From NCBI RefSeq assembly GCF_027579695.1, contig NC_083596.1, positions 50,419,757-50,483,756 of the forward strand: a stretch of 64,000 bases of DNA, written 5' to 3'. Both the position numbers and the translations under genes were made by a program. Positions 17,476 through 64,000 of this stretch are shown here, in pieces. The DNA is from Neoarius graeffei. Lineage: Eukaryota > Chordata > Actinopteri > Siluriformes > Ariidae. The notes below the pieces were generated by a model. It was given only the letters and a program-made list of their open reading frames with translations, was not told the DNA's origin and searched no databases. Each line of letters begins with the position of its first letter. The first letter of the stretch is position 1.

Positions 17476-17529
<54 letters not shown>

Positions 17530-18084: not shown

Positions 18085-18124
<40 letters not shown>

Positions 18125-18203
18125 AGTTTATGGTGTGGAGGTTCTGTTAAAAATCACTGGTCTTGGTCCATTGGCTTATTTCAGCTCTGGGTGGAACCTG
18201 TAA

Positions 18204-18253
<50 letters not shown>

Positions 18254-18679: not shown

Positions 18680-18720
<41 letters not shown>

Positions 18721-18860
18721 CTCTGTAGGTTGTTTAAGATTAAGCAGCGTTTCCGTAATGTGTTGGACACCATGTTTGAGCTGTTTCCACGCATGGCCAG
18801 GTGGGGGCGCTTTATCAACTTACATCACCTTTCATCAAAGATTACACTCATATACAGCAC

Positions 18861-18906
<46 letters not shown>

Positions 18907-19009
18907 CTTGGACTGACTCTCATTATCTTTTATTACTCCTTTGCGATTGTGGGGATGGAGTTCTTTGCTGATGTCGTCTATCCCAACTGCTGCAAGTGAG
19001 ATCGCACTG

Positions 19010-19049
<40 letters not shown>

Positions 19050-19549
19050 TAATCTTGGTTAAATAATAATAATTGTGTATTTAACACTGTGTGGTTTTCA
19101 GTACCAGCACCGTCGCTGATGCGTATCGGCAAATCAACGTAACCGTCGGCAACCACACAGTGCTGCAGGAGGGATATTACTATCTCAACAACTTCAACAA
19201 CATCCTCAGCAGCTTTGGTTTGTTCTGAGTCTCTCTCTCTCTCACTCACTCACTCACTCACTCACTCACTCACTCACTCACTCTCTGCTGAGTCTGAGTT
19301 TGATGTCTTTCTCTTGCAGTGACACTGTTTGAGCTGACTGTCGTCAACAACTGGTACATCACCATGGTAAGCCACGCCTCCTTCATTATGACTGACAAGC
19401 AGGCCACACCTCTTTTATTCAGACTGACAGGTGGAGGCCATGCCTCCTTTATGAAGCTGATGATGTGTTTTGTGTTACAGGAAGGTGTGACATCACAGAC
19501 GAGTCACTGGAGTCGCCTTTACTTCATGACCTTCTACATCGTCACCATG

Positions 19550-19584
<35 letters not shown>

Positions 19585-20901: not shown

Positions 20902-22125
20902 GACACACACTCCTGAAGAAGTTGTTTTATGTAGACGACGGACCTTCTCGGCCGTCTTTCCCTTCCTAATGAAGGCTGCGCTGCAGGTCACCATAGCGAC
21001 GACCCCTTCCTGTATTCTCCAATGACTTCCAGGTCACCACCTGCAGAACTGATTAGCTGACAGGAAGTCTGATGAGCTGACAGGAAGTCTGATTTCCCTT
21101 CGCAACCTTAGGGTTTTGTGACCAATCACATCACGGAAAGACCAGCTGTCGGATCGCACTCGGGTCCAGGAACCATTTTATTTTGTTTTATTTTTCAGAA
21201 GCACAAATGACTTCTCTCTTTAAAATAATAATAACCTCACACACACACACACAGGTCTGGCTTTAGCATCTAGACACACAAAGTTCTCGGTTTCCGCTAA
21301 ACCAGGATGTAATTAGCATTTAAAAATCTATTAGTGCAGATTTTTTCAGCACATATTGTTCATATTGTTTTACATAACTCAGTCCAAACCTTAAAAAAAC
21401 CATACTTTGCCCCAGAATGCTAAAGCTTGCATTAGCGAACGCACCATGCTAACTGATCCTTCCTTGTGTTTATTCACGGTTAGCTGCCTCGTTAGCTCAG
21501 AACTTCGAGTTCCATCGCAATAATCTGGGCCAGCTACAGAAATAAATCAACCAGATTTCCCTCCCTCCATTTCCAAAACCATGCAAGAAACCTCTCCCCA
21601 TGCTAACGCTGCTAACAGTCAGTAGGTAGGGAACCTGCCCTGCTATCATGCTAACTCCTCCTCATAATACCTTCACCACAGAATCTTGAGCAAGATTGTT
21701 TTTTTTTTTTTTCCCTTCCAGGTAGGAGTTCTTTAAACAGTTCTCTTTTTACTTTTGAGCTTTGTTTTCTTGAATAAGTTACTCAAAATGGAGTCTGAAA
21801 TAGCTATAGTGCTAATGCTGTGCTATGCAGGTGCACATGATCTCTCTCTCACACACACACACACACATCACTAAAAACAGTTTTTAAACCCTTTTTTAGG
21901 AGAAAAATCAGAGGAAAGCGCATTGATAAGGCTATTAGCTAAATCTAAAACTTTGGAAGTGATGAAAAGCTCCTCAGCTAGCTTAGCTTAACTTTCAGTG
22001 TAGCTTGTGAGCTAGCATTCCACCTCCACAAGGAGCAGCGAAATAAATATAGCTGCAAACTAGCGATAAAATGAAGAAAAATATCGTTATTTAAGCCAAA
22101 AGCAGGATTCGGATTAAAGTTGAAC
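20902..22125 (+). other. TPCN1 3' UTR and downstream flank
   Basis: Sequence after the stop codon. The first AATAAA is at about 21541; later ones lie near 22042 and 23281. The end of the transcript cannot be chosen without RNA data. There are short CA runs at 21238-21252 and 21850-21867. I see no other gene. Confidence 0.45.
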
Positions 22126-41000: not shown

Positions 41001-42730
41001 TTTCCTGGAACTTTCTTGAACATCTGAACATTTTGTACTCTCTCTCTTTTTTTTTTAATTTCCAAGCTCAGGCAGGCGAGCTGTTGGCAGTGAAGAGCGA
41101 ACTGGAGAGGATGAAGAAAGAAAATGCTGGTAAAACAACAACAACAACAACAGTAACATTCATTCCTAGTTACTGAGGACTTGCAGAACAGCTTTGAAGA
41201 TGAAATAACAGCAAAGAGTCAATCTTACAGAGTAGAATTAACACAAAAAATAAACACTGAGTTTTTACACACTGTCAGTGTTAAACACATAGCGCTTTCA
41301 CTTACATGGGTGTTTTACTATGAAAGGTGCAACATAACATTCATACATCATCATCATCGTATCTTGAAATCTTAATTAAGATTCAGAACACATTTTTTTC
41401 TTCCCCACTTTTGTGTTAATTGTGTGTCTACTGTACATCATACCTGTGTTGCGTTAATTGCTGTGTGTTGTGTTGGCAGAGCGGCCGAAGGTGGCGTTCA
41501 GTGCCAGATTATCTGCAGGATATCACGGAGTGTTTGACACCGAAACCACTCTGATCTACAGTCAAGTCATCAGCAATATCGGAGCAGCTTATAACCCACA
41601 CACAGGTCGGGTAATTAACACACACCTGCACATCATTACAACTCACACTCAGAATCAATTATAACAATCACAGTCTGCATTTTTCCACATCTGTTCTCTT
41701 TACGTTTGAAACGATTTTTTGTGACATGAAACAAAAAGTGCTACACAAGTCGATTTAACTAAGTCATAATGTTCATGTTTGTGTCCACCAACAAAACTCT
41801 TTTAAAATAAGATGTACAGTGAAATTTCTTTTTTAGCTTTTGTACAAACCATATAAAACTTTCTTTTTGGAGTATTGAGCTCCGCCCACTCAAATGTGCA
41901 ATAATTTGCACAATATGTGAAGCCTACTTGTGTTAATTGGTTGCAGCTACATTTATTATTATTATTAGATTAGATTAGATAAAACTTTATTGATCCCTTT
42001 GGACGGGTTCCCTCAGGGAAATTAAGAAAGATATGGGCGGCATGGTGGTGTAGTGGTTAGCGCTATTGCCTCACAGCAAGAAGGTCCGGGTTCAAGCCCC
42101 GTGGCCGGCGAGGGCCTTTCTGTGCGGGGTTTGCATGTTCTCCCCATGTCCGTGTGGGTTTCCTCCGGGTGCTCCGGTTTCCCCCACAGTCCAAAGACAT
42201 GCAGGTTAGGTTAACTGGTGACTCTAAATTGACCGTAGGTGTGAATGTGAGTGTGAATGGTTGTCTGTGTCTATGTGTCAGCCCTGTGATGACCTGGCGA
42301 CTTGTCCAGGGTGTACCCCGCCTTTCGCCCGTAGTCAGCTGGGATAGGCTCCAGCTTGCCTGCGACCCTGTAGAACAGGATAAAGCGGCTAGAGATAATG
42401 AGGTGAGATTATCAGTTGTAGTAGTAACTCATGTGTGTGTTAATTGCAGGCATGTTCATAGCTCCGGTTACAGGTGCGTACTATGTCCACATCACAGCCT
42501 ACAATGGTACCAACCGCGACACTGGCGTCCGCCTGTACAAGAACAGCCAGCACCTCATGCACTTGGTCAGCGACAGCAAAAACAACTCTACCAAACATGT
42601 GTCCAGCGCGCTGGTGCTCGAACTGGAGGCCGGAGACGTCGTGTATCTCCGTCTTCTCAGGAACTGCGCCCTCTGTGACGACAAGCTGCACTGCAACACC
42701 TTCAGCGGATTCCTCATTTTCACTTCCTAA
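38083..42730 (+). CDS. C1q-domain paralogue B, signal-peptide region lost
   Basis: Exons 2-4 are intact: 41067-41129, 41480-41605, 42450-42730, with the same phases as in A and C. Exon 1 ends at 38239 ([20 protein letters not shown] kept). Its 5' part has changed. Where A and C have CAGCAGTAAAGATG plus a 20-residue signal peptide, B has CAGCAGCACACACAG and a deletion of about 40 bases. The ancestral ATG is gone. The first in-frame ATG is 38083, giving [14 protein letters not shown] with no hydrophobic segment. A product from there would have 208 residues with coiled coil and a full C1q domain ([32 protein letters not shown]). The C1q domain has extra cysteines ([13 protein letters not shown]). 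It may be an early pseudogene, a non-secreted form, or use an unseen upstream exon. Confidence 0.65.
38438..38641 (-). mobile_element. tRNA-derived SINE, probable V-SINE
   Basis: On the minus strand it starts GAAGCCATGGCCTAATGATT, has the B-box-like GTTTGATTCCC and the block CTTGAGCAAGG. It ends in AAGAGCGTCTGCTAAATG followed by (ATGTG)n-type sequence. This 3' end is a hallmark of V-SINE-type elements in fish. Confidence 0.65.
38655..39046 (-). mobile_element. tRNA-derived SINE, full-length, with TSD
   Basis: On the minus strand: head GGCGGCACGGTGGTGTAGTG (A-box region), B-box GGTTCGAGCCC, body, and a (TGAGA)n tail (38655-38682). It is flanked by CCATTTCCATCCT (38642-38654) and CCATTTTCATCCT (39047-39059), a 13-bp target duplication with one change. 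It landed at the head of the V-SINE. Confidence 0.9.
39255..39790 (+). repeat. Interspersed repeat copy 2 (uninterrupted)
   Basis: It matches the split copy at 3594-5570 in order and orientation, starting AAGTCAAGTTTATTTCTATA and ending near GGAGCAGAAGAGGTTCAGC. It serves as the empty-site reference for the two elements inserted in copy 1. Lies in intron 1 of gene B. Confidence 0.85.
39791..41066. other. Gene B intron 1 remainder, with a repeat related to 23600-24285
   Basis: The stretch 40175-40450 is the reverse complement of parts of 23740-24010 (AAAAGTAACTCAGTAAATTAC, CACCGGCTGGAAGGTGA). The rest is unassigned. No coding exon is seen until 41067. Confidence 0.5.
41957..42030 (-). mobile_element. 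LINE 3' tail
   Basis: On the minus strand it reads GGATCAATAAAGTTTTATC followed by (TAATC)n. This is the usual 3' end of CR1/L2/Rex1-group elements in fish. The SINE at 42035 begins right beside it. Lies in intron 3 of gene B. Confidence 0.6.
42035..42408 (+). mobile_element. tRNA-derived SINE, full-length
   Basis: Head GGGCGGCATGGTGGTGTAGT, B-box GGTTCAAGCCC, complete body and the CTAGAGATAATGAG tail. It ends only about 40 bp before exon 4 of gene B. Confidence 0.9.
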
Positions 42731-43091: not shown

Positions 43092-46000
43092 AATGTGTGC
43101 TCGTGTGCAGTATTACAGTGTGTGTTACAGTGTGTGTTACAGTGTGTGTCCCAGTGTGTGTTAGTGTATATTACAGTGTGTGTCCCAGTGTGAGTTACAG
43201 TGTGTATTACAGTGTGTCCCAGTGTGTTAGTGTATATTACAGTGTGTGTCCCAGTGTGAGTTACAGTGATATTACAGTGCGTGCCACAGTGTGAGTTACA
43301 GTGATATTACAGTGTGTGTCCCAGTGTGAGTTACAGTGATATTACAGTGCGTGCCCCAGTGTGAGTTACAGTGATATTACAGTGTGTGTCCCAGTGTGAG
43401 TTACAGTGTATATTAGTGTGTGTCCCAGTGTGTGTTACAGTATATATTACAGTGTGTGTCCCAGTGTGTGTTACAGTGTATATTACAGTGTGTGTCCCAG
43501 TGTGTGTTACAGTGTATATTACAGTGTGTGTCCCAGTGTGAGTTACAGTGATATTACAGTGTGTGTCCCAGTGTGTGTTACAGTGTATATTACAGTGTGT
43601 GTCCCAGTGTGTGTTACAGTGTATATTACAGTGTGTGTCCCAGTGTGAGTTACAGTGATATTACAGTGTGTGTCCCAGTGTGTGTTACAGTGTATATTAC
43701 AGTGTGTCCCAGTGTGAGTTACAGTGTATATTACAGTGTGTGTCCCAGTGTGAGTTACAGTGTATATTACAGTGCGTGTCCCAGTGTGAGTTACAGTGTA
43801 TATTACAGTGCGTGTCCCAGTGTGAGTTACAGTGTATATTACAGTGTGTCCCAATGTGAGTTACAGTGATTAGTGTGTGTCCCAGTGTGTGTTACAGTAT
43901 ATATTACAGTGTGTGTCCCAGTGTGTGTTACAGTGTATATTACAGTGTGTGTCCCAGTGTGTGTTACAGTGTATATTACAGTGTGTGTCCCAGTGTGAGT
44001 TACAGTGATATTACAGTGTGTGTCCCAGTGTGTGTTACAGTGTATATTACAGTGCGTGTCCCAGTGTGAGTTACAGTGTATATTACAGTGTGTCCCAGTG
44101 TGAGTTACAGTGTATATTACAGTGCGTGCCCCAGTGTGAGTTACAGTGATATTACAGTGTGTGTCCCAGTGTGAGTTACAGTGATATTACAGTGCGTGCC
44201 CCAGTGTGAGTTACAGTGATATTACAGTGTGTGTCCCAGTGTGAGTTACAGTGATATTACAGTGTGTGTCCCAGTGTGTGTTACAGTGTATATTACAGTG
44301 CGTGTCCCAGTGTGAGTTACAGTGTATATTACAGTGTGTCCCAGTGTGAGTTACAGTGTATATTACAGTGCGTGCCCCAGTGTGAGTTACAGTGATATTA
44401 CAGTGTGTGTCCCAGTGTGAGTTACAGTGATATTACAGTGCGTGCCCCAGTGTGAGTTACAGTGATATTACAGTGTGTGTCCCAGTGTGAGTTACAGTGT
44501 ATATTAGTGTGTGTCCCAGTGTGTGTTACAGTATATATTACAGTGTGTGTCCCAGTGTGTGTTACAGTGTATATTACAGTGTGTGTCCCAGTGTGTGTTA
44601 CAGTGTATATTACAGTGTGTGTCCCAGTGTGAGTTACAGTGATATTACAGTGTGTGTCCCAGTGTGTGTTACAGTGTATATTACAGTGTGTGTCCCAGTG
44701 TTTGTTACAGTGTATATTACAGTGTGTGTCCCAGTGTGAGTTACAGTGATATTACAGTGTGTGTCCCAGTGTGTGTTACAGTGTATATTACAGTGTGTCC
44801 CAGTGTGAGTTACAGTGTATATTACAGTGTGTGTCCCAGTGTGAGTTACAGTGTATATTACAGTGCGTGTCCCAGTGTGAGTTACAGTGTATATTACAGT
44901 GCGTGTCCCAGTGTGAGTTACAGTGTATATTACAGTGTGTGTCCCAATGTGAGTTACAGTGATATTAGTGTGTGTCCCAGTGTGTGTTACAGTATATATT
45001 ACAGTGTGTGTCCCAGTGTGTGTTACAGTGTATATTACAGTGTGTGTCCCAGTGTGTGTTACAGTGTATATTACAGTGTGTGTCCCAGTGTGAGTTACAG
45101 TGATATTACAGTGTGTGTCCCAGTGTGTGTTACAGTGTATATTACAGTGCGTGTCCCAGTGTGAGTTACAGTGTATATTACAGTGTGTCCCAGTGTGAGT
45201 TACAGTGTATATTACAGTGTGTCCCCCAGTGTGTGTTACAGTGTATATTACAGTGCGTGTCCCAGTGTGAGTTACAGTGTATATTACAGTGCGTGTCCAA
45301 GTGTGAGTTACAGTGTATATTACAGTGTGTGTCCCAGTGTGAGTTACAGTGTACATTACAGTGTGTGTCCCAGTGTGAGTTACAGTGTATATTACAGTGT
45401 GTCCCAGTGTGAGTTACAGTGTATATTACAGTGCGTGTCCCAGTGTGAGTTACAGTGTATATTACAGTGCGTGTCCCAGTGTGAGTTACAGTGTATATTA
45501 CAGTGCGTGTCCAAGTGTGAGTTACAGTGTATATTACAGTGCGTGTCCCAGTGTGAGTTACAGTGTACATTACAGTGCGTATCCCAGTGTGAGTTACAGT
45601 GTATATTACAGTGCATGTCCCAGTGTGAGTTACAGTGTATATTACAGTGTGTGTCCCAGTGTGAGTTACAGTGCATATTACAGTGCATGTCCCAGTGTGA
45701 GTTACAGTGATATTACAGTGTGTGTCCCAGTGTGTGTTACAGTGTATATTACAGTGTGTGTCCCAGTGTGAGTTACAGTGTACATTACAGTGCGTGTCCC
45801 AGTGTGAGTTACAGTGTATATTACAGTGCGTGTCCTTGTGTGAGTTACAGTGTATATTACAGTGCGTGTCCCAGTGTGAGTTACAGTGTACATTACAGTG
45901 CGTGTCCCAGTGTGAGTTACAGTGTACATTACAGTGCATGTCCCAGTGTGTGTTACAGTGTATATTACAGTGCGTGCCCCAGTGTGAGTTACAGTGTATA

Positions 46001-49000
46001 TTACAGTGTGTGTCCCAGTGTGAGTTACAGTGTACATTACAGTGCGTGTCCCAGAGTGAGTTACAGTGTATATTACAGTGCGTGTCCCAGTGTGAGTTAC
46101 AGTGTATATTACAGTGTGTGTCCCAGTGTGAGTTACAGTGATATTACAGTGTGTGTCCCAGTGTGTGTTACAGTATATATTACAGTGTGTGTCCCAGTGT
46201 GTGTTACAGTGTATATTACAGTGTGTGTCCCAGTGTGTGTTACAGTGTATATTACAGTGTGTGTCCCAGTGTGTGTTACAGTGTATATTACAGTGTGTCC
46301 CAGAGTGAGTTACAGTGATATTACAGTGTGTGTCCCAGTGTGTGTTACAGTGTATATTACAGTGCGTGTCCCAGTGTGAGTTACAGTGTATATTACAGTG
46401 TGTCCCAGTGTGAGTTACAGTGTATATTACAGTGTGTGTCCCAGTGTGTGTTAGTGTATATTACAGTGCGTGTCCCAGTGTGAGTTACAGTGTATATTAC
46501 AGTGCGTGTCCAAGTGTGAGTTACAGTGTATATTACAGTGTGTCCCAGTGTGAGTTACAGTGTATATTACAGTGTGTCCCAGTGTGAGTTACAGTGTATA
46601 TTACAGTGTGTCCCAGTGTGTGTTACAGTGTATATTACAGTGCGTGTCCCAGTGTGAGTTACAGTGTATATTACAGTGCGTGTCCAAGTGTGAGTTACAG
46701 TGTATATTACAGTGTGTCCCAGTGTGAGTTACAGTGTACATTACAGTGCGTGTCCCAGTGTGAGTTACAGTGTATATTACAGTGTGTCCCAGTGTGAGTT
46801 ACAGTGTATATTACAGTGCGTGTCCCAGTGTGAGTTACAGTGTATATTACAGTGCGTGTCCCAGTGTGAGTTACAGTGTATATTACAGTGCGTGTCCCAG
46901 TGTGAGTTAGTGTATATGACAGTGCGTGTCCAAGTGTGAGTTACAGTGTATATTACAGTGCGTGTCCCAGTGTGAGTTACAGTGTACATTACAGTGTGTG
47001 TCCCAGTGTGAGTTACAGTGTATATTACAGTGCATGTCCCAGTGTGAGTTACAGTGTATATTACAGTGTGTGTCCCAGTGTGAGTTACAGTGTATATTAC
47101 AGTGCATGTCCCAGTGTGAGTTACAGTGATATTACAGTGTGTGTCCCAGTGTGTGTTACAGTGTATATTACAGTGTGTGTCCCAGTGTGAGTTACAGTGT
47201 ACATTAAAGTGCGTGTCCCAGTGTGAGTTACAGTGTATATTACAGTGCGTGTCCTTGTGTGAGTTACAGTGTATATTACAGTGTGTGTCCCAGTGTGAGT
47301 TACAGTGTACATTACAGTGCGTGTCCCAGTGTGAGTTACAGTGTACATTACAGTGCGTGTCCCAGTGTGTGTTACAGTGTACATTACAGTGCGTGTCCCA
47401 GTGTGAGTTACAGTGTATATTACACTGCGTGTCCAAGTGTGAGTTACAGTGTATATTACACTGTGTGTCCCAGTGTGAGTTACAGTGTATATTACACTGC
47501 GTGTCCCAGTGTGAGTTACAGTGTATATTACACTGCGTGTCCCAGTGTGAGTTACAGTGTATATTACAGTGCATGTCCCAGTGTGAGTTACAGTGTATAT
47601 TACAGTGCATGTCCCAGTGTGAGTTACAGTGTATATTACAGTGCGTGTCCCAGTGTGAGTTACAGTGTATATTACAGTGCGTGTCCCAGTGTGAGTTACA
47701 GTGTATATTACAGTGCGTGTCCCAGTGTGAGTTACAGTGTATATTACAGTGTGTGTCCCAGTGTGTGTTACAGTGTATATTACAGTGCCTGTCCCAGTGT
47801 GAGTTACAGTGTATATTACAGTGCGTGTCCCAGTGTGTGTTACAGTGTATATTACAGTGCTTGTCCCAGTGTGAGTTACAGTATATATTACAGTGCGTGT
47901 CCCAGTGTGAGTTACAGTGTATATTACAGTGCGTGTCCCAGTGTGAGTTACAGTGTATATTACAGTGCGTGTCCCAGTGTGAGTTAGTGTATATTACAGT
48001 GCGTGTCCCAGTGTGAGTTACAGTGTATATTACAGTGCGTGTCCCAGTGTGAGTTACAGTGTATATTACAGTGCATGTCCCAGTGTGAGTTACAGTGTAT
48101 ATTTCAGTGTGTGTCCCAGTGTGAGTTACAGTGTATATTACAGTGCGTGTCCCAGTGTGTGTTACAGTGTATATTACAGTGCGTGCCCCAGTGTTTGTTA
48201 CAGTGTATATTACAGTGTGTCCCAGTGTGTGTTCGTGTATATTACAGTGTGTGTCCCAGTGTGAGTTACAGTGATATTACAGTGTGTGTCCCAGTGTGTG
48301 TTACAGTGTATATTACAGTGTGTGTCCCAGTGTGTGTTAGTGTATATTACAGTGTGTCCCAGTGTATATTACAGTGCGTGTCCCAGTGTGTGTTACAGTG
48401 TATATTACAGTTCATGTCCCAGTGTGTTAGTGTATATTACAGTTCGTGTCCCAGTGTGAGTTACAGTGTATATTACAGTGCGTGTCCCAGTGTGTGTTAC
48501 AGTGTATATTACAGTGCGTGTCCCAGTGTTTGTTACAGTGTATATTACAGTGCGTGTCCCAGTGTGAGTTACAGTTTATATTACAGTGCGTGTCCCAGTG
48601 TGAGTTACAGTGTATATTACAGTGCGTGTCCCAGTGTGAGTTACAGTGTATATTACAGTGCGTGTCCCAGTGTGAGTTACAGTGTATATTACAGTGCATG
48701 TCCCAGTGTGAGTTACAGTGTATATTTCAGTGTGTGTCCCAGTGTGAGTTACAGTGTATATTACAGTGCGTGTCCCAGTGTGTGTTACAGTGTATATTAC
48801 AGTGCGTGTCCCAGTGTGAGTTACAGTGTATATTACAGTGCATGTCCCAGTGTGAGTTAGTGTATATTTCAGTGTGTGTCCCAGTGTGAGTTACAGTGTA
48901 TATTACAGTGCTTGTCCCAGTGTGAGTTACAGTGTATATTACAGTGCATGTCCCAGTGTGAGTTACAGTGTATATTACAGTGCGTGTCCCAGTGTGAGTT

Positions 49001-50250
49001 ACAGTGTATATTACAGTGCGTGCCCCAGTGTGAGTTACAGTGTATATTACAGTGCGTGCCCCAGTGTTTGTTACAGTGTATATTACAGTGCGTGCCCCAG
49101 TGTTTGTTACAGTGTATATTACAGTGCGTGTCCCAGTGTGAGTTACAGTTTATATTACAGTGCGTGTCCCAGTGTGAGTTACAGTGTATATTACAGTGCG
49201 TGTCCCAGTGTGAGTTAGTGTATATTACAGTGCGTGTCCCAGTGTGAGTTACAGTGTATATTACAGTGCGTGTCCCAGTGTGAGTTACAGTGTACATTAC
49301 AGTGCGTGTCCCAGTGTGAGTTACAGTGTATATTACAGTGCATGTCCCAGTGTGAGTTACAGTGTATATTTCAGTGTGTGTCCCAGTGTGAGTTACAGTG
49401 TATATTACAGTGCGTGTCCCAGTGTGTGTTACAGTGTATATTACAGTGCGTGTCCCAGTGTGAGTTACAGTGTATATTACAGTGCATGTCCCAGTGTGAG
49501 TTACAGTGTATATTTCAGTGTGTGTCCCAGTGTGAGTTACAGTGTATATTACAGTGCGTGTCCCAGTGTGAGTTACAGTGTATATTACAGTGCGTGTCCC
49601 AGTGTGTGTTACAGTGTATATTACAGTGTGTGTCCCAGTGTGAGTTACAGTGTATATTACAGTGCGTGTCCCAGTGTGTGTTACAGTGTATATTACAGTG
49701 CGTGCCCCAGTGTTTGTTACAGTGTATATTACAGTGTGTCCCAGTGTGTGTTCGTGTATATTACAGTGTGTGTCCCAGTGTGAGTTACAGTGATATTACA
49801 GTGTGTGTCCCAGTGTGTGTTAGTGTATATTACAGTGTGTCCCAGTGTATATTACAGTGCGTGTCCCAGTGTGTGTTACAGTGTATATTACAGTTCATGT
49901 CCCAGTGTGTTACAGTGTATATTACAGTTCGTGTCCCAGTGTGAGTTACAGTGTATATTACAGTGCGTGTCCCAGTGTGTGTTACAGTGTATATTACAGT
50001 GCGTGTCCCAGTGTGTGTTACAGTGTATATTACAGTGCCTGTCCCAGTGTGAGTTACAGTGTATATTACAGTGCGTGTCCCAGTGTGAGTTACAGTGTAT
50101 ATTACAGTGCGTGTCCCAGTGTGTGTTACAGTGTATATTACAGTGCGTGTCCCAGTGTGAGTTGCAGTGTGTGTCCCAGTGTGTGTTACAGTGTATATTA
50201 CAGTGTGTATCCCAGTGTGTGTTACAGTGTACACTACAGTGTGTGTCCCA
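43092..50250. repeat. GT-rich tandem array, dialect 1 (36-bp unit)
   Basis: More than 7 kb of units close to CAGTGTGAGTTACAGTGTAT + ATTACAGTGCGTGTCC (36 bp), with shorter variants (GTTACAGTGATATTACAG, GTGTATTAGTG). The unit codes for 12 residues in any frame (QCELQCILQCVS, YSVYYSACPSVS, and HTGT-type on the minus strand), which creates very long frames that are not genes. A larger repeat is visible: 43395-43870 recurs at 44486-44960, an offset of about 1091 bp. Stretches near 48.0-48.4 kb also recur near 49.2-49.8 kb. Confidence 0.95.
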
Positions 50251-53200
50251 GTGTGCGTTACAGCATGTCACAGTGTGCTACAGCATGTGCCAAAGTGTGT
50301 GTTACAGCATGTGTCCCAGTGTGTGTTACAGTGTGTGTCCAAGTGTGCATTACAGTGTGTGTCACAGCATGTTACAGAGTGTGTTACAGCATGTGCCAAA
50401 GTGTGTGTCCCAGTGTGTGTAACAGCATGTGCCAAAGTGTGTGTTACAGTGTGTGGTACAGCGTGTGGTACAGTGTGTGTCCCAGTGTGCATTACAGTGT
50501 GTGTCACAGCATGTTACAGTGTGTGTAACAGCACGTGCCAAAGTGTGTGTTACAGTGTGTGTCCCAGTGTGTTTTACAGTGTGTGCCAAAGTGTGTGTTA
50601 CAGTGTGTGTTACAATGTGTGTCCCAGTGTGTGTTACAGTGTGTGTCCCAGTGTGTGTTTTAGTGTGTTACAGCATGTGCTAAAGTGTGTGTTACAGTGT
50701 GTGTCCTAGTGTGTGTCCCAGCATGTTACAGTGTGTGTCACAGTGTGTGCCAGAGTGTGTGTCCCAGTGTGTGTTACAGCATGTGCCAAAGTGTGTGTTA
50801 CAGTGTGTGTTACAGCATGTGCCAAAATGTGTGTCCCAGTGTGTGTTACAGCATGTGCCAAAGTGCGTGTCCCAGTGTATGTCACAGCATGTGCTAAAGT
50901 GTGTGTCTCAGTGTGTGGTACAGCATGTGACAAAGTGTGTGTCCCAGTGTGTGTTACAGCATGTACCAAAGTGCGTGTCCCAATGTATGTTACAGCATGT
51001 GCCAAAGTGTGTGTTACAGTGTGTGGTACAGCGTGCATTACAGTGCGCGTCTCAGTGTGTGTTACAGCATGTGCCAAAGTGTGTGTCCCAGTGTGTGTTA
51101 CAGGGTGTGCCAAAGTGTGTGTCCCAGTGTGTGTTACAGGGTGTGCCAAAGTGTGTGTCCCAGTGTGTGTTTCAGTGCGTGCCAAAGTGCATGTTACAGT
51201 GTGTGGTACAGCGTGCGTTACAGTGTGTGTCCCAGTGTGTGTCACAGCATGTTACAGTGTGTGTTACAGCATGTGCCAAAGTGTGTGTCCCAGTGTGTGT
51301 TACAGGGTGTGCCAAAGTGTGTGTCCCAGTGTGTGTTACAGGGTGTGCCAAAGTGTGTGTCCCAGTGTGCATTACAGTGTGTGTCACAGCATGTTACAGT
51401 GTGTGTAACAGCACGTGCCAAAGTGTGTGTTACAGTGTGTGTCCCAGTGTGTTTTACAGTGTGTGCCAAAGTGTGTGTTACAGTGTGTGTTACAATGTGT
51501 GTCCCAGTGTGTGTTACAGTGTGTGTCCCAGTGTGTGTTTTAGTGTGTTACAGCATGTGCTAAAGTGTGTGTTACAGTGTGTGTCCTAGTGTGTGTCCCA
51601 GCATGTTACAGTGTGTGTCACAGTGTGTGCCAGAGTGTGTGTCCCAGTGTGTGTTACAGCATGTGCCAAAGTGTGTGTCCCAGTGTGTGTTACAGCATGT
51701 GCCAAAGTGTGTGTTACAGTGTGTGTTACAGCATGTGACAAAATGTGTGTCCCAGTGTGTGTTACAGCATGTGCCAAAGTGCGTGTCCCAGTGTATGTCA
51801 CAGCATGTGCTAAAGTGTGTGTCTCAGTGTGTGGTACAGCATGTGACAAAGTGTGTGTCCCAGTGTGTGTTACAGCATGTACCAAAGTGCGTGTCCCAAT
51901 GTATGTTACAGCATGTGCCAAAGTGTGTGTTACAGTGTGTGGTACAGCGTGCATTACAGTGCGCGTCTCAGTGTGTGTTACAGCATGTGCCAAAGTGTGT
52001 GTCCCAGTGTGTGTTACAGGGTGTGCCAAAGTGTGTGTCCCAGTGTGTGTTTCAGTGCGTGCCAAAGTGCATGTTACAGTGTGTGGTACAGCGTGCGTTA
52101 CAGTGTGTGTCCCAGTGTGTGTCACAGCATGTTACAGTGTGTGTTACAGCATGTGCCAAAGTGTGTGTCCCAGTGTGTGTAACAGCATGTGCCAAAGTGT
52201 GTGTTACAGTGTGTGGTACAGCGTGTGGTACAGTGTGTGTCCCAGTGTGCATTACAGTGTGTGTCACAGCATGTTACAGTGTGTGTAACAGCACGTGCCA
52301 AAGTGTGTGTTACAGTGTGTGTCCCAGTGTGTTTTACAGTGTGTGCCAAAGTGTGTGTTACAGTGTGTGTTACAATGTGTGTCCCAGTGTGTGTTACAGT
52401 GTGTGTCCCAGTGTGTGTTTTAGTGTGTTACAGCATGTGCTAAAGTGTGTGTTACAGTGTGTGTCCTAGTGTGTGTCCCAGCATGTTACAGTGTGTGTCA
52501 CAGTGTGTGCCAGAGTGTGTGTCCCAGTGTGTGTTACAGCATGTGCCAAAGTGTGTGTCCCAGTGTGTGTTACAGCATGTGCCAAAGTGTGTGTTACAGT
52601 GTGTGTTACAGCATGTGCCAAAATGTGTGTCCCAGTGTGTGTTACAGCATGTGCCAAAGTGCGTGTCCCAGTGTATGTCACAGCATGTGCTAAAGTGTGT
52701 GTCTCAGTGTGTGGTACAGCATGTGACAAAGTGTGTGTCCCAGTGTGTGTTACAGCATGTACCAAAGTGCGTGTCCCAATGTATGTTACAGCATGTGCCA
52801 AAGTGTGTGTTACAGTGTGTGGTACAGCGTGCATTACAGTGCGCGTCTCAGTGTGTGTTACAGCATGTGCCAAAGTGTGTGTCCCAGTGTGTGTTACAGG
52901 GTGTGCCAAAGTGTGTGTCCCAGTGTGTGTTTCAGTGCGTGCCAAAGTGCATGTTACAGTGTGTGGTACAGCGTGCGTTACAGTGTGTGTCCCAGTGTGT
53001 GTCACAGCATGTTACAGTGTGTGTTACAGCATGTGCCAAAGTGTGTGTCCCAGTGTGTGTTACAGGGTGTGCCAAAGTGTGTGTTACAGTGTGTGTTACA
53101 GGGTGTGCCAAAGTGTGTGTCCCAGTGTGTGTTACAGGGTGTGCCAAAGTGTGTGTCCCAGTGTGCATTACAGTGTGTGTCACAGCATGTTACAGTGTGT

Positions 53201-54856
53201 GTAACAGCACGTGCCAAAGTGTGTGTTACAGTGTGTGTCCCAGTGTGTGTTTTAGTGTGTTACAGCATGTGCTAAAGTGTGTGTTACAGTGTGTGTCCTA
53301 GTGTGTGTCCCAGCATGTTACAGTGTGTGTCACAGTGTGTGCCAGAGTGTGTGTCCCAGTGTGTGTTACAGCATGTGCCAAAGTGTGTGTCCCAGTGTGT
53401 GTTACAGCATGTGCCAAAGTGTGTGTTACAGTGTGTGTTACAGCATGTGCCAAAATGTGTGTCCCAGTGTGTGTTACAGCATGTGCCAAAGTGCGTGTCC
53501 CAGTGTATGTCACAGCATGTGCTAAAGTGTGTGTCTCAGTGTGTGGTACAGCATGTGACAAAGTGTGTGTCCCAGTGTGTGTTACAGCATGTACCAAAGT
53601 GCGTGTCCCAATGTATGTTACAGCATGTGCCAAAGTGTGTGTTACAGTGTGTGGTACAGCGTGCATTACAGTGCGCGTCTCAGTGTGTGTTACAGCATGT
53701 GCCAAAGTGTGTGTCCCAGTGTGTGTTACAGGGTGTGCCAAAGTGTGTGTCCCAGTGTGTGTTACAGGGTGTGCCAAAGTGTGTGTCCCAGTGTGTGTTT
53801 CAGTGCGTGCCAAAGTGCATGTTACAGTGTGTGGTACAGCGTGCGTTACAGTGTGTGTCCCAGTGTGTGTCACAGCATGTTACAGTGTGTGTTACAGCAT
53901 GTGCCAAAGTGTGTGTCCCAGTGTGTGTTACAGGGTGTGCCAAAGTGTGTGTCCCAGTGTGTGTTACAGGGTGTGCCAAAGTGTGTGTCCCAGTGTGTGT
54001 TTCAGTGTGTGCCAAAGTGCATGTTACAGTGTGTGGTACAGGGTGCGTTACAGTGTGTGTCCCAGTGTGTGTCACAGCATCTTACAGTGTGTGTTACAGC
54101 ATGTGCCAAAGTGTGTGTCCCAGTGTGTGTTACAGTGTGTGCCAAAGTGTGTGTTATAGTGCATGTGCCAAAGTGCATGTTACAGTGTGTGGTACAGCGT
54201 GTGTTACAGTGTGTCCCCCAGTGTGTGTCACAGCATGTTACAGTGTGTGGTACAGGGTGCATTACAGTATGTGTCCCAGTGTGTGTCACAGCATGTTACA
54301 GTGTGTGTTACAGCATGTGCCAAAGTGTGTGTCCCAGTGTGTGTTACAGCATGTGCTAAAGTGCGTGTCCCAGTGTGTGTTACAGCATGTGCCAAAGTGC
54401 GTGTCCCAGTGTATGTCACAGCATGTGCTAAAGTGTGTGTCTCAGTGTGTGGTACAGCATGTGACAAAGTGTGTGTCCCAGTGTGTGTTACAGCATGTAC
54501 CAAAGTGCGTGTCCCAATGTATGTTACAGCATGTGCCAAAGTGTGTGTTACAGTGTGTGGTACAGCGTGCATTACAGTGCGCGTCTCAGTGTGTGTTACA
54601 GCATGTGCCAAAGTGTGTGTCCCAGTGTGTGTTACAGGGTGTGCCAAAGTGTGTGTCCCAGTGTGTGTTACAGGGTGTGCCAAAGTGTGTGTCCCAGTGT
54701 GTGTTTCAGTGCGTGCCAAAGTGCATGTTACAGTGTGTGGTACAGCGTGCGTTACAGTGTGTGTCCCAGTGTGTGTCACAGCATCTTACAGTGTGTGTTA
54801 CAGCGTGTGCCAAAGTGTGTGTCCCAGTGTGTGTTACAGGGTGTGCCAAAGTGTGT
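50251..54856. repeat. GT-rich tandem array, dialect 2 with 880-bp higher-order repeat
   Basis: The 36-bp unit changes to CAGTGTGTGTTACAGCATGT + GCCAAAGTGTGTGTCC. Near-identical copies of a long block start at about 50687, 51567, 52447 and 53279, giving periods of 880, 880 and 832 bp. Part of the block is repeated again from about 54300. Private variants (CAGCGTGCATTACAGTGCGC, TGTGTTTTAGTGTGTTACAG) recur at fixed places in each block. Open frames of up to 542 codons are by-products. Confidence 0.95.
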
Positions 54857-54864
54857 GTCCCAGT

Positions 54865-55646
54865 CAGCGATGGGAATAACGGCGTTAGAAATAAACGGCG
54901 TTACTAACGGCGTTACTTTTTTTAGTAGCGACTAATCTAACTAATTACTTTTTACATCGTTATAACGCCGTTCCCGTTACTTACAATAAAATGCTATGCG
55001 TTACTTTATTAAAGCTGTTTTCATCTGGCACGCTGCTCGTTCAGCCTTTCTTTACTCTGCTTTAGTGTGGGGCGGGGAGACCCGAGACAACGGCACAGTA
55101 AGCCAATCAGAGTAGATTTGGACAACATACGTAGGTAGGCCACGCCCTACGATGGCGAGCGGTCAGCCCAGCACTGCGCTTTCACACTGGAAATACAGCC
55201 AGGACTTTTCATTACTTGAAATAAAACGCAAAAATGTGTACGTGCAATGCACATTATGTCGAGGAACAAAGCGTTTGTCCGCGTCAGTGGCCAGTAATTA
55301 GTAACATAATTTTAATAACTACAAAAATATATTAAATTTGATAGATGTCTTCTCACATAGTCCCACAAAAATATTAATATACTGTAGATAATGTTACTGA
55401 TTGGTTCTGTTAAGTGTCCATTTCAGTCATTAAACACATTTAACATTCACTTTTATTATGATTACACTAATTGAATTTGATTTATTTTTTGGGGGGGAGG
55501 TAACAAAATGTAACGGAATAATTACTTTCCCTGGTAATTAGTTACTTTTATGACAAAGTAACTCCGTTACTAACTCAGTTACTTTTTGGGAAAAGTAACT
55601 AGTAACTATAACTAATTACTTTTTGAAAGTAACGTGCCCAACACTG
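54865..55646. mobile_element. hAT-type element inserted in the array, 8-bp TSD
   Basis: 782 bp. Ends are CAGCGATGGGAATAACG (left) and, from the right, CAGTGTTGGGCACGTTAC. The exact 8-bp duplication GTCCCAGT (54857-54864, 55647-55654) is array sequence. Reiterated GTTACTTTT/AACTAATTAC lies near both ends. An interior stretch at about 55152-55300 encodes a decayed BED-zinc-finger-like segment (SHWKYSQDFSLLEI, VQCTLC), as in hAT transposases. The rest of the transposase is absent. Confidence 0.9.
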
Positions 55647-56536
55647 GTCCCAGTGTGTGTTTCAGTGTGTGCCAAAGTGCATGTTACAGTGTGTGGTACA
55701 GCGTGCGTTACAGTGTGTGTCCCAGTGTGTGTCACAGCATCTTACAGTGTGTGTTACAGCATGTGCCAAAGTGTGTATCCCAGTGTGTGTTACAGTGTGT
55801 GCCAAAGTGTGTGTTATAGTGTGTGTTACAGTGCATGTGCCAAAGTGCATGTTACAGCGTGTGTTACAGTGTGTCCCCCAGTGTGTGTCACAGCATGTTA
55901 CAGTGTGTGGTACAGCGTGCGTTACAGTGTGTCCCTCAGTGTGTGTCACAGCATGTTACAGTGTGTGGTACAGGGTGCGTTACAGTATGTGTCCCAGTGT
56001 GTGTCACAGCATGTTACAGTGTGTGTTACAGCATGTGCCAAAGTGTGTGTCCCATTGTGTGTTACAGGGTGTGCCAAAGTGTGTGTTATAGTGTGTGTTA
56101 CAGTGCATGTGCCAAAGTGCGTGTTACAGTGTGTGGTACAGCGTGTCTTACAGTGTGTGTCCCAGTGTGTGCCAAAGTGTGTGTTATAGTGTGTGTCCCA
56201 GTGTGTGTTACAGCATGTGCCAAAGTGCGTGTTACAGTGTGTGTCCCAGTCTGTGTTACAGTGTGTGTCACAGCATGTTACAGTGTGTGTTACAGCATGT
56301 GCCAAAGTGTGTGTCCCAGTGTGTGTTACAGTGTGTGCCAAAGTGTGTGTTACAGTGTGTTATAGTGTGTGTTACAGTGCATGTCCCAGTGTGTGTCCCA
56401 GCATGTTACAGTGTGTGTCCCAGCATGTTACAGTGTGTGTTACAGCGTGTGCCAAAGTGTGTGTCCCAGTGTGTGTTACAGTATGTGCCAAAGTGTGTGT
56501 TACAGTGTGTGTCCAAGTGTGCATTACAGTGTGTGT
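55647..56536. repeat. GT-rich tandem array, continuation
   Basis: Dialect 2 units continue after the hAT insertion, more diverged and with more GTTATAGTG and TGTCCCCCAGTG variants than the 880-bp blocks. Confidence 0.9.
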
Positions 56537-58472
56537 TGGATTGGATTGGATTGGATTGGATTGGATTAACTTTAATACTCGCCAAAGGGGAAACTCAGTG
56601 CCACCATCAACATACAAGACACAACACAACATGAAGCAAGACATTAAAACAGGTACAGGACAGAAGATATAGCAGAGAGCAACATAGAGAAGCAGACCAT
56701 GGCAATGGACCACCAACATGTGCAACATACAGCAGTATAAGCAAGGAAGAAAACAAGCATCAACAGTTAATGGCAATGGACCACCAACATGTGCAACACA
56801 GAACAGTATAAAAAGAACCATGCATACACATACATGCACATACACACATATGCCTAAGTAAAGAAATAAATAAATAAATAATAGTGAGTCAATAAAAACA
56901 ACACTATATCAAAGGTGCTTATTAAAAAACCTAACTGCAGAAGGTACAAAAGATCTCCTGAATCTCTCAGTTGAGCAGCTGGGGAAGAGGAGTCGCTGAC
57001 TCCTACCACTTCTTACAAAGAAACTATGAAGAGGATGGTCCTCTTCTGCCACAATCCTTTTCATTTTTCTCATGGTTCTCTGTTCAATTACTTCTTCTAG
57101 AGAACTGGGGCTGAGACCAATAATTGAGCCTGCTTTTCTGATCAGCTTATTGAGCCTGTTCCTGTCCTCCCCTGACAAACAGCTACCCCAGCACACCACC
57201 GCATAAAAGAGGACACTGCCCAGAATCCCATTATAAAAAGTGTTTAAGATGGGCCTACTAATACTAAAAGACCTGAGTTTCCTTAGGAAGAACATTCTAG
57301 ACTGAGATTTTTTGAACGTGTTGCTACTGTGTACCTTCCAGTCCAGTTTGCTGTCCACATGTACACCCAAATACCTATAAGAAGAAACTATCTCGACAGG
57401 CTGGTCTTTAATTAAAATTGGGCTAACCTCAGTTTTCTTACGTCTAAAATCAATGGTAAGCTCTTTTGTTTTTTCAACATTTAAGATGAGCTGTGCTTCA
57501 TCACACCATTCCACAAATCTCTTAATCTCATCTTTGTACTCTCTGTAGTCATTATTAGTTATATAGCCCACCAGGGCAGAATCATCTGAAAACTTTTGTA
57601 GGTGACAGGAAGCATTAATGTGTCTGCAGTCAGAAGTGTACAATGTGAATAAAAAAGGAGAGAGAACTGTCCCCTGCGGTGCCCCTATGTTGGTGTTAAT
57701 AACAATAGACGTGTTGCCATGGAGCTTGACAAACTGAGGTCTAGATGTGAGATAGTCATATATCCATGCTATGGTGGCTGGGTTTAAGTTCATGTTCATA
57801 AGTTTTTTTGCAAGGAGGCGTGGTTGTAGTGTGTTGAAAGCACTAGAAAAGTCGAAAAACATTACCCTGAGAGATGCACCAGTACTCTCCAGGTGACAGT
57901 ATGCTCGGTGAAGCAAGTATAAGAGGGCGTCATCAGTACCCACCCCCTCCCTGTAAGCAAACTGGAGTGGGTCCTGATGCAGTTGCACCTGTTTCCTTAG
58001 ATGTACAAGGAGGGATCTCTCAAAACATTTCATGACATGAGAAGTAAGGGCAATGGGTCTGAAATCCTTAACTGCCTTGACATTTGGCTTTTTGGGCACT
58101 GGAATGATACAAGATGTTTTCCATATGGATGGAATTCTAGAACATGACAGGGATAAATTAAATAAATAATGAAACACAGTACATAGTTGATCAGCACATG
58201 TCTTAAGGACACGTGGGATAACTCCATCTGGGCCAGGGGCCTTGTTCACTTTGAGCCTCCTCAGCTGTGAGTGGACCTCATCTAATGTGATATTTATAGG
58301 AGAACAGGGAGGTAAACTGCCCCCCTGCTCCCCATGTGAAATACTGGATACCCCTGGCACATCATTTTCCCAGTTCCCCATGGACTCAAACCTGGCATAA
58401 AATTGGTTCGCCTCATCAGGAGAAAAGGAGTTCCCCCCTGTACTGTTACATACAGGACCATAGCCTGTAATA
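56537..58472 (-). mobile_element. 5'-truncated LINE with open reverse-transcriptase frame
   Basis: A minus-strand non-LTR retrotransposon inserted in the array. From about 58470 down to a stop at 56909-56911 there is an open frame of about 520 codons. Numbering from the upstream array ATG at 58495, motifs are NKAPGPDG (84-91), DFRPIAL (144-150), FFDFSSAF (213-220), GAPQGTVLSP (271-280), the catalytic FSDDSALVG (302-310), and a C-terminus with RRSFVPSAVRFFNKHL. These fit the CR1/L2/Rex1 group. A 3' UTR follows, then a tail of five to six TCCAA-type pentamers (56537-56567). The endonuclease half is missing by 5' truncation. The lack of stops suggests a recent insertion. Confidence 0.9.
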
Positions 58473-58740
58473 TGTGTTAGTGTGTGCCAAAGCATGTGTC
58501 CCAGTGTGTATTATAATGTGTGTTACAGTGTGTGCCAAAGCATGTGTCCCAGTGTGTGTTACGGCATGTTACAGTGTGTGCTCGTGTGTTACAGTGTGTG
58601 TCTTACAGCATGTTAAATGACAGTTAATGGCTGATGGTGTGTGTTACAGTATGTGTTACAGTGTGTGTTACGGCATGTTACAGTGTGTGCTTGTGTGTTA
58701 AATGACAGTTAATGGCTGATGGTGTATGTTACAGTGTGTA
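58473..58740. repeat. GT-rich tandem array, distal end
   Basis: Array units resume directly after the LINE (GTGTTAGTGTGTGCCAAAGC) and fade out near 58740. A 50-bp phrase with AAATGACAGTTAATGGCTGA occurs twice (about 58614 and 58699). Confidence 0.9.
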
Positions 58741-59273: not shown

Positions 59274-61738
59274 ATGGAGAGAACCGTGTTCCACGTGCTC
59301 GTCGTGTTTCTCCTGACGCCGGTGCCGAGCAGTCTGCAGGAAACGGAAACTCACGGAAATTTTCAGGATCCATGCAGTGAGCTGAAGCAGCTCCGAGATC
59401 TCGTGGATCAGCAGACGGCCACTTTATCTGAGATCAAGACGAAGATGGTGTACATGGAGAAAGAGAACGCAGGTGAGATGAAGAACATCACGCTTCATCT
59501 TGCTCAGCATCACTGTCGCTGTTTATACCGTTTCTGCTCTTTACCACCAACCAGAACCCGAGTCCGTTTGTAGAAACTGACAAACTCTTGAAACTCTGGT
59601 TGATTTTCAAATGATTGTATGCTATCAAACTTGAGGTGTTGATGTTAAACATACACCAAGGTTCAAAAAAAAAAAGTAGCAGCTGGAAGCCAAATTTCAC
59701 TCGCTAAATAACTTTTCCTCCAAACTCAACTTTTGCTAGTTCACGATCACTTGCTGGTTGACATCTAGAACATCAAAACATCACTCTATTCTTCTTTATT
59801 CCCAAGCTCAATCAGCCGAGCTGTCAGTCGTGAAGAGTGAACTGGGGAGTGTGAAGAAGCAAAACGCTGGTAAACACACACCATTCAACACTCAACACTT
59901 AACACAGTATGCCATGATGCTAATTATTCACATTTACAGAACAGTGTTATAGAAGAAATAAGATCAACAATCAACTCTTACATTGTCGAATTAACACCAA
60001 ATATAAAATAACGACCTACCATGCTGAATAACCACTTATTAATATCATGCTGAAATGTGATTTGTGAGCTGCAAATTAAATGACATGACTGTCCTGTGAT
60101 GAAACACATCAATGCTGGTGGTAATATTTGTCAACAATTGTTTCCAGACAAAACTGATCTCGCCCGGCGTCACTTTTATACCTATATGTTGATAATGGTA
60201 ATATTTCTCAATCATCAGCTGTCAGGTTATAGTCCTATGAAAATCCATGACCTTGAGTTTGACATTTCAAAGTCATTCAAGGTCAAAGGTCATGGCAGCA
60301 AGTGAAAGCCCAAATGGGACTTCTTATATGTTGATAATAGTAAACATCTAGCTTTCATGAACCATTTTAAAGTTATAGCCCTTTGAAAACCCATGACCTT
60401 CAGTTTGACCTTTCAGGGTCACTCAAGGTTAAAGATCATGGTGCCAAATGAAAGCCCATATGGCACTTCCTGTAAGTTGATGAGGGTAAATATCTGTCTA
60501 CCATCAACCGTTTTCAAGTTACAGCCCTCTGAAAATCCGTGATCTTGAGTTTGACTTTTCAACGTCGCTCAAGGTCAAAGGTCATGAAGCCAAATGAAAG
60601 GCCATATAGGAGTTCCTATATGCTCATAATAGTAAACATCTGTCTATCGGCAACCATTTTTGAGTTATAATGGAAAATATGTTATTTTGACGGAAAGGTT
60701 GACCTTTCCGGTGACCTTCACCTTGACCCGATTACCCCCAAAATTTAATCAGGTAATTTACGGACCATTGAAAATTTGAAGTCAATCAGTGCAACCGTCT
60801 AGCTGCTAGATTGTTAACAGACGGACACAAACAAACAAACAAACAAACAAACAAACTGATTACTGTGTTGTGGGCGAAGTAAAAACCTGCATTTTATGGG
60901 TTGAAAAAGGCTCAAAACGCCACCTACTGGTTAAAATCATGCTACACCTTTCAAGGCCGATGCTGATGTAGCGTTGACTGTTTGGGATTTATCTCCATCG
61001 TTATCTACATTTTCATAAACAAAACAATACTAACATCCCTGAATCAGGACTAAGAACTGTCATAGTTTTTAATTAACACCAGTAGTTTGTGATCTTACTG
61101 ATGGTGTTTACATGATCACCATTTTGTTTTGCGTTAATCGCTGTGTGTTGTGTTGACAGAGCGGCCGAAGATAGCGTTCAGCGCCGGATTATCTGCAGGA
61201 CAGGCAGGGCCGTTTAACACCGAAACCACTCTGATTTACAGTAAAGTCATCAGCAACATCGGAGGAGCTTATAACCCACACACAGGTCCTGTAATTAACA
61301 CACAACTAACAGTTAGAATCAAGTATAACGATGACAGTCTGCAACTTCCACATCTGTTCTCTTTACATTTGAAATGATTTTTTGAAAAAGTCCTACACAA
61401 GTAGATTAATACCTTGAGTGCTGAATGAAATTGTGTGCGTGTTAATCGCAGGCGTGTTCACAGCCCCGGTTCGAGGCGTGTACTATATCCGCTTCACAGC
61501 TGCCACCTACAACACCAACAACCACAACATGGGCGTTCATCTGTACAAGAACAGCCAGCACCTCATGCACTTGGGCGAGTACAGCACGGACGGCACTGCC
61601 AGACACGTGTCCGGCGCTCTGGTGCTCGATCTGGAGGCCGGAGACGTCGTGTATCTCCGCCTCCTCACCAACTACACCCTCTACGATGACACGATGCTCC
61701 GCAACACCTTCAGCGGCTTCCTCATTTTCCCTTCCTGA
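59274..61738 (+). CDS. C1q-domain secreted protein, paralogue C
   Basis: Four exons: 59274-59472, 59807-59869, 61160-61285, 61452-61738, all GT-AG. They give 675 nt and 224 residues, the same exon lengths and phases as gene A. The signal peptide ([20 protein letters not shown]) and the exon 1 coiled coil are nearly identical to A, while exon 2 ([20 protein letters not shown]) and the C1q domain have diverged more. The domain has [37 protein letters not shown] and ends LIFPS. As in A there is no collagen region. Inferred role: secreted, trimer-forming C1q-superfamily protein. Polyadenylation signals AATAAA lie at about 61898 and 61908. The gene is compact (2.5 kb) compared with A (7.9 kb). Confidence 0.88.
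60130..60890 (+). mobile_element. GACCTTGAG-type repeat in gene C intron 2
   Basis: Uninterrupted relative of the split copy at 31795-34397. Same order of phrases (CCTATATGTTGATAATGG, TCAAGGTCAAAGGTCATGG, AAATGAAAGGCCATAT) and the same ACAAACAAACAA-rich end near 60825-60855. Useful as the empty-site reference for the hAT insertion at 32405. Confidence 0.75.
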
Positions 61739-63089: not shown

Positions 63090-64000
63090 AAGATATTACA
63101 GTGTGTTACAGTGTTGTATAGTGTTACAGTGTGTGTTACAGTGTGTTAGTGTTGTATGATGTTAGTGTGTCAGTGTGTATTACAGTGCTGTATGGTGTTA
63201 CAGTGTGTGTTACAGTGTGTGGTAGTGTTGTATGATGTTAGTGTGTTAGTGTGTATTACAGTGCTGTATGGTGTTACAGTGTGCGTTACAGTGTGTGGTA
63301 GTGTTGTATGATGTTACAGTGTGTGTTAGTGTTGTATGATGTTACAGTGTGTGTTAGTGTTGTATGATGTTAGTGTGTTAGTGTTGTATGGTGTTACAGT
63401 GTGTGTTAGTGTTGTATGATGTTACAGTGTGTATTACAGTGTTGTATGATGTTACAGTGTGTGTTGCAGTGTTGTATGATGTTACAGTGTGTGTTAGTGT
63501 TATGATGTTAGTGTGTATTACAGTGTTGTATGATGTTACAGTGTGTGTTAGTGTTGTATGATGTTACAGTGTGTGTTACAGTGTGTGTTAGTGTTGTATG
63601 GTGTTACAGTGTGTGTTAGTGTTGTATGATGTTAGTGTGTTAGTGTTGTATGGTGTTACAGTGTGTGTTAGTGTTGTATGATGTTACAGTGTGTATTACA
63701 GTGTTGTATGATGTTACAGTGTGTGTTGCAGTGTTGTATGATGTTACAGTGTGTGTTAGTGTTATGATGTTAGTGTGTATTACAGTGTTGTATGATGTTA
63801 CAGTGTGTGTTAGTGTTGTATGATGTTACAGTGTGTGTTACAGTGTGTGTTAGTGTTGTATGGTGTTACAGTGTGTGTTAGTGTTGTATGATGTTACAGT
63901 GTGTGTTACTGTTGTGTGGTGTTACAGTGTGTGTTAGTGTTGTATGATGTTAGCGTGTTAGTGTGTACAACAGTGTTGCATGATGTTACAGTGTGTTAGT
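63090..64000. repeat. Second GT-rich tandem array, runs off the window
   Basis: Units such as GTGTTAGTGTTGTATGATGT + TACAGTGT repeat to the end of the window. A larger unit of about 262 bp is visible: the phrase GTGTTGCAGTGTTGTATG occurs at 63461 and 63723, and GTTAGTGTTATGATG at about 63493 and 63755. The core TTACAGTGTGTGTTA is shared with the large array at 43-58 kb. Confidence 0.95.

Follow-up and report, generated by a model that had tools for sequence, protein, structure and literature searches.

A GT-rich tandem array between two C1q genes of Neoarius graeffei is very probably a hypervariable-type minisatellite specific to its locus, which expanded through unequal exchange or break repair and was enlarged by a very recent burst of block duplication. 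The array lies in the 64,000-nucleotide stretch C29:50419757–50483756 (the window, whose positions are used below) of a 2.34-Gb genome in 38 contigs; the contig measures 53.09 Mb and ends ~2.6 Mb away from the array. The 36-bp tandem repeat spans 43113–58740, ~12.9 kb once two transposon insertions are subtracted, and its C1q neighbors are matched by PF00386, in agreement with an earlier note on this DNA that had placed ~13 kb of tandem sequence between two C1q paralogues. Minisatellites consist of head-to-tail units of roughly 10–100 bp across 0.1–20 kb. Tandem Repeats Finder (TRF) reports a single array at 43116–54845, with 329 copies of a 36-bp period over 11.7 kb and 85% matches, and thus of minisatellite size in both unit and length.

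Two dialects of the 36-bp unit

Decomposition of the array into 12-mers reveals two successive parts, named dialect 1 and dialect 2, with ordered A-B-C triplets before 50.25 kb and D-E-F triplets, interrupted by many irregular steps, after it. The border is sharp: the mean match to the dialect-1 unit drops from 32.8 to 27.4 of 36 positions between the intervals 50001–50250 and 50251–50500, which confines the switch to ~250 bp, while the TRF period stays at 36, as the earlier note had proposed. Between the two 36-mers, 8 of the 36 positions differ; compared with a trimer of CAGTGTGTGTTA, they show 5 and 7 differences. At the left edge of the array, two CAGTGTGTGTTA-type 12-mers stand side by side, and the same edge holds 2 of the 26 exact copies of the 24-mer TTACAGTGTGTGTTACAGTGTGTG in the assembly. 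Judged from these unit sequences, the CAGTGTGTGTTA trimer may be the ancestor of both 36-mers.

The exact words tested are confined to this array, with all 80 assembly matches of the dialect-1 word and all 28 of the dialect-2 word falling within it, as expected of the locus-specific unit variants of a variable number of tandem repeats (VNTR) locus.

Kilobase blocks in the array

An ungapped self-comparison of 43100–58740, in which the best run was taken for each offset, gave runs of 1863 bp at offset 880 (95.8% identity), 624 bp at 2628 (99.8%), 546 bp at 832 (100%), 566 bp at 906 (98.8%), 581 bp at 1091 (99.7%), and 651 bp at 1419 (97.1%). The peaks near 880 and 1091 bp, whose absence the earlier note had said would refute its higher-order repeat (HOR) structure, are therefore both present. 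In dialect 2, landmark 30-mers recur at spacings that vary with the landmark, of 880 or 916; 880; 832, 868, or 916; and 906 bp, and five blocks are recognized from this spacing, of which the last is cut by an insertion. The blocks of 880, 880, and 832 bp described previously are thus real, but the first and third steps have the alternative lengths given here and the truncated fifth block, at the step of 906 bp, had been missed. Similarly, the offset of ~1091 bp claimed for dialect 1 was found, but as one of several block lengths (Table 1).

The first four blocks, c1 to c4, are almost identical. In the six pairwise alignments, mismatches number 11/844, 2/844, 0/796, 9/880, 7/796, and 4/832, the block ends being chosen by us and surplus end bases (101, 29, and 65 for c4 against c1, c2, and c3) being left uncounted as end gaps; a multiple alignment of the blocks slips in places, and the counts are taken from the pairwise alignments. 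In the c1/c2 pair, 10 of the 11 mismatches are in the last 51 bases. The most alike pair is c1/c4 (0/796), though these blocks are not neighbors. The blocks thus differ at 0–1.3% of aligned bases, versus a unit match of 85% across the array, which is the pattern of an HOR. Gaps inside the block alignments are of 36, 72, or 84 bp only, each a multiple of 12, as in a VNTR that changes copy number by whole units or sub-units. Such few substitutions alongside several whole-sub-unit gaps suggest that length change outruns point mutation.

To control for chance, the order of the units was permuted in 20 shuffles per dialect. The long-range score of dialect 2 is 1310, against a shuffle maximum of 189, and this is the strongest block signal among the arrays that we measured.

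Table 1 Features of the array and its surroundings
Feature	Position	Strand	Evidence or remark
C1q-domain exon (last exon)	34823–35128		PF00386
C1q gene, last exon	42428–42727	+	PF00386, 7.2e-17; stops ~0.4 kb ahead of the array
Dialect 1 array, unit CAGTGTGAGTTA-CAGTGTATATTA-CAGTGTGTGTCC	43113–50243	+	36 bp = 3 x 12; block offsets 1091, 1419, 1483, 1519 among others
Dialect 2 array, unit CAGTGTGTGTTA-CAGCATGTGCCA-AAGTGTGTGTCC	50244–54864	+	Four blocks and a truncated fifth
Dialect-2 blocks c1, c2, c3, c4	50472–51351, 51352–52231, 52232–53147, 53148–54080	+	Fifth block truncated by insertion
Left 8-bp target-site duplication GTCCCAGT	54857–54864
hAT-like DNA transposon, 782 bp, ends CAGCGATGGG / CCCAACACTG	54865–55646		In fifth dialect-2 block
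Array continuation, dialect-2-like, more irregular	55647–56535	+	Starts with right target-site duplication (55647–55654)
LINE-like retroelement insertion	56536–58467	−	Putative; (TTGGA)n at 56536–56567; reverse-transcriptase frame, PF00078, 2.5e-24
Degenerate right edge of array, 48- and 85-bp periods	~58468–58740	+	TRF and decomposition
Next C1q gene, last exon, past the array	61430–61735	+	PF00386, 2.9e-18
Second GT-rich array, ~28-bp unit	63096–64000 and 1–7780 of the following stretch (L010)	+	8.7 kb in total; 3' of the C1q gene at 61430–61735

Insertions in the array

The array is interrupted twice and resumes past both insertions (Table 1). The first insertion is a 782-bp element bordered on both sides by GTCCCAGT, which we take to be of the hAT type from its 8-bp duplication and end sequence. 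Only the fifth block carries it; blocks 1–4 do not. Its first 336 bases belong to a dispersed family with 1631 first-look candidates in the genome; among the best 40 of these, which were scored, 39 lie outside the window with 87–90% identity. The second insertion is probably LINE-like, judging from a reverse-transcriptase frame and a short-repeat end; its stop-free frame, 56912–58510, extends 43 bases into the array.

Related arrays elsewhere in the genome

Diverged relatives of the array word do occur elsewhere. The remaining copies of TTACAGTGTGTGTTACAGTGTGTG are found in the neighboring array from 63.1 kb (16), on C8 (7), and on C13 (1). The exact 18-mer TTACAGTGTGTGTTACAG occurs at 84 places, in this array, the neighboring one, and at least 11 other loci, while its reversed control gives 0. 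A 159-base composite query yielded at least 126 matches; scoring of 39 of the 56 candidates led to this array and its neighbor and to at least 12 other loci. The neighboring array, which runs 7.8 kb past the window, has the 12-bp word in common with the 36-bp array and does not share the 36-bp unit. Just downstream of it (L010 8911–10000 and L011 1–260), a 60-bp unit forms an array of 1.35 kb, with TRF matches of 94% and 91%. On C8, the 18-bp unit ACAGGGTGAGGAGGAAGC forms a 7-kb array (C8:76520004–76526967, L046) that adjoins GT-rich arrays and has blocks recurring at 455 bp; as this array begins right where the sequence examined begins, its full length may be greater.

Several other GT-rich arrays of the genome have different periods and their own block repeats. 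Nine array stretches were compared at offsets of at least 150 bp, with five shuffles of 48-bp pieces each. Besides the two dialects, six of the seven stretches score well above their shuffle maxima (287/73, 227/68, 316/67, and 650/111; 485/77 for positions 1–6967 and 350/64 for positions 14398–21311 on the C8 stretch). The block score also climbs where the units of an array are uniform (for the 60-bp array it peaks at multiples of 60), and it therefore shows order, not always an HOR. Among seven short stretches from related loci, scored without shuffles, block repeats are seen in L063 (221 at 1122 bp), L065 (232 at 892 bp), and L067 (392 at 366 bp), while L066 has a score of 473 at 150 bp, outside its TRF array.

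Origin of the array

The tiers are best explained by stepwise amplification. A GT-rich word of 12 bp, about CAGTGTGTGTTA, would have multiplied in tandem, and three diverged 12-mers would then have formed one 36-bp unit, of which two parts of the array would each have fixed their own variant, the dialects. Runs of units of about 0.9–1.5 kb would finally have been duplicated as blocks through out-of-register exchange or break repair. As far as the sequence can tell, the block pattern is what unequal exchange or block-copying break repair would leave, and the near-identical blocks with inner gaps in multiples of 12 bp bear out the recent block-wise exchange proposed in the earlier note, the exchange itself being the likely mechanism. 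The burst may be young also in years, and the length of the array may vary between individuals today. A molecular function is neither needed nor indicated for the array.

Minisatellites near telomeres owe their instability to meiotic breaks, according to the relevant part of PMC7615360, and the position of the related loci can be viewed in this light. Loci within 3 Mb of a contig end, where 9.7% are expected, amount to 8 of the 12 listed from the composite query (P 2.8e-6), 4 of the 11 listed for the 18-mer (P 0.017), and 9 of the 17 in the union of the lists (P 9e-6), in tests that are post hoc and on contig ends that may not be telomeres. When contig starts only are counted, 8/17 loci compare with 1/39 hAT copies (Fisher P 1.3e-4), the hAT copies being the best-scoring ones rather than a random sample. 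One could imagine that sites prone to breakage near chromosome ends are marked by the GT-rich core word TTACAGTGTGTG and that each of them independently evolves its own dialect and kilobase blocks. We hold this to be unlikely; if true, the set of TTACAGTGTGTG loci would indicate the places where meiotic breaks are repaired most actively.

Several points, the limits of these tests among them, weigh against our interpretation of the array. The long-range score of dialect 1, 567, exceeds its shuffle maximum of 414 by a modest margin, and the HOR of this part, weaker and irregular, is less clear-cut for that reason. The C8 array at 8003–10578 gives a weak block signal (82 versus a shuffle maximum of 59), and three of the seven short related stretches, L027, L064, and L068, give little or none (37, 32, and 10); from the nine-stretch and seven-stretch comparisons, block duplication is therefore frequent, not universal, among such arrays here. 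Matches were grouped into loci by hand, the locus lists are lower bounds, and several related loci are single short matches rather than demonstrated arrays. Finally, the absence of any mismatch between c1 and c4 over 796 aligned bases is a situation where assemblers err. It raises the alternative, to which we give a small chance, that the array is real and the assembler has produced too many or too few of the near-identical 880-bp blocks. The blocks are, however, distinguished by their inner gaps of 36, 72, and 84 bp and their few substitutions, the fifth is the only one to contain a transposon, whose 8-bp duplication is clean, and there is no N base in the window, although all these points are still compatible with a wrong block number.

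The 84 places of the 18-mer, spread over so many loci, could also be explained if a dispersed element had carried the TTACAGTGTGTG word to them and local expansion had followed. When the dust-masked 30 kb around the C8 arrays were compared with the window, however, only short multi-place repeats were found in common outside the arrays, and repeated origin from (GT)n is equally simple; we regard transport by such an element as improbable. A dispersed repeat of ~110–375 bp occurs at about 6.6, 31.3, 37.2, 38.7, and 42.1 kb of the window and in L048, its window and C8 copies being about 95–99% identical.

The C1q neighborhood

Of the three C1q last exons that the window contains, two have a GT-rich array starting downstream of them, at 0.4 kb and 1.4 kb. 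A CA-rich array (period 28 bp, with alternative readings of 16, 44, and 72 bp) lies at 28392–30335; in a homology-inferred model, exons of the first C1q gene flank it. These positions would suit a non-coding element with a function in the C1q cluster, in which GT-rich DNA or GU-rich RNA 3' of the genes affects termination, splicing factors, or expression. Against it, TRF finds no such array 3' of the third last exon of the window (34823–35128), and none of the nine other C1q 3' flanks examined, ~6 kb each, has a TRF array with a score of at least 100 and a period of at least 8 (genome-wide there are 62 C1q matches, 3 of them in the window, and 9 of the 59 outside were checked). In addition, homology among the C1q units stops ahead of the arrays, at 42857 and 61869, and two C1q exon pieces were sought without a match in the 30 kb surrounding the C8 arrays and in 3 kb on C13. 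Such a function is accordingly very improbable. The same observations on homology, the third exon, and the flanks led us to reject a seed of the array carried along by C1q duplication, and the unmatched 30 kb led us to reject a connection between C1q and the C8 arrays. In our view, the array is near C1q by chance, or the connection is at most very local.

Other tandem repeats are found in the same region. A ~146-bp tandem repeat occurs at 60133–60842 and at 31787–32400, in two C1q genes and between their exons; stretches at least 190 bp long are 79–86% identical between the copies, so that this repeat may have duplicated with the genes. Two more minisatellite regions, at 887–1833 (42 bp) and 10742–11528 (26/32 bp), make the region dense in tandem arrays.

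Z-DNA, centromeric, and coding interpretations

The earlier note had suggested that a pure GT-rich strand might form Z-DNA. The strand is GT-rich but far from a pure GT run: its longest (GT)n measures 8 bp, versus 50 bp in window positions 1–43000, and the longest alternating purine-pyrimidine tract in 43113–54864 is 10 bp, versus 55 bp in the same reference. As Z-DNA requires a long uninterrupted alternating tract, these short tracts make the suggestion weak; no G4 motif was found within 43113–56540, and both readings were rejected.

A centromere-like nature holds for the architecture only. Centromeric satellites, which are bound by CENP-A, have a unit common to several chromosomes in very long arrays, whereas here the exact dialect words occupy one place among the 38 contigs, in ~13 kb situated ~2.6 Mb from a contig end; a centromeric reading was rejected on the basis of this single locus.

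All six frames of 43113–54864 hold stop-free frames of 285–529 codons, and the longest open frame, 543 codons, continues into the insertion, so that a repetitive protein might be proposed. However, the consensus units are stop-free in 4/6 (dialect 1) and 5/6 (dialect 2) frames, and open frames are therefore expected; some 12-mers, 2 bp shorter or 1 bp longer, break the reading frame, and the two frames tested have no Pfam match at E 0.001. A coding repeat was rejected as extremely improbable.

Comparison with known tandem repeats

The array is a clear three-tier case (12, 36, and about 880 bp) of an HOR arising outside centromeres. It leaves the knowledge of satellites unchanged; in practice, it is a candidate for use as a hypervariable marker and warns that this C1q cluster may differ from one assembly to another.

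Classical human hypervariable minisatellites have a GC-rich core. Those of the human proterminal regions, reportedly described by Royle et al. in 1988, resemble the array in whole-unit change and possibly in a bias to chromosome ends, with the reserve that the contig ends here may not be telomeric. A literature search on minisatellite HORs in fish genomes returned no paper.

Alpha-satellite HORs share with the array their nested organization and near-identical higher-order blocks, as far as described in the relevant parts of PMC3218096 and PMC2588610; unlike centromeric alpha-satellite, the array measures only 13 kb, has a 36-bp unit, lies between genes, and is the single locus of its exact words. 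The earlier note had found an HOR remarkable in what looks like a euchromatic gene cluster. The HOR is present, but precedents appear in these parts of both papers, and blocks also occur in some further arrays of this genome. In mouse, the large tandem repeats marked as having HORs include TR-17A and TR-29A, each at a single locus, and the unplaced 36-bp TR-36A (PMC3218096, the part on these repeats); with units of 17–36 bp and lengths of 3–10 kb they are similar to the array, in a comparison made by description and with the mouse HOR graded as + or −. Warburton et al. (PMC2588610) describe, in their section on VNTR HORs, a human 61-bp VNTR of 18 kb at pseudoautosomal Xp22.33, one among several VNTR arrays with HORs, whose irregular HORs measure 1.6 and 2.5 kb. 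Compared by description, it differs in its 61-bp unit and unrelated locus, and no two-dialect border is described in that section; like the array, it combines a short unit, more than 10 kb of length, and irregular kilobase HORs. The array of N. graeffei thus fits a published kind, the VNTR-type arrays with kilobase HORs of human and mouse.

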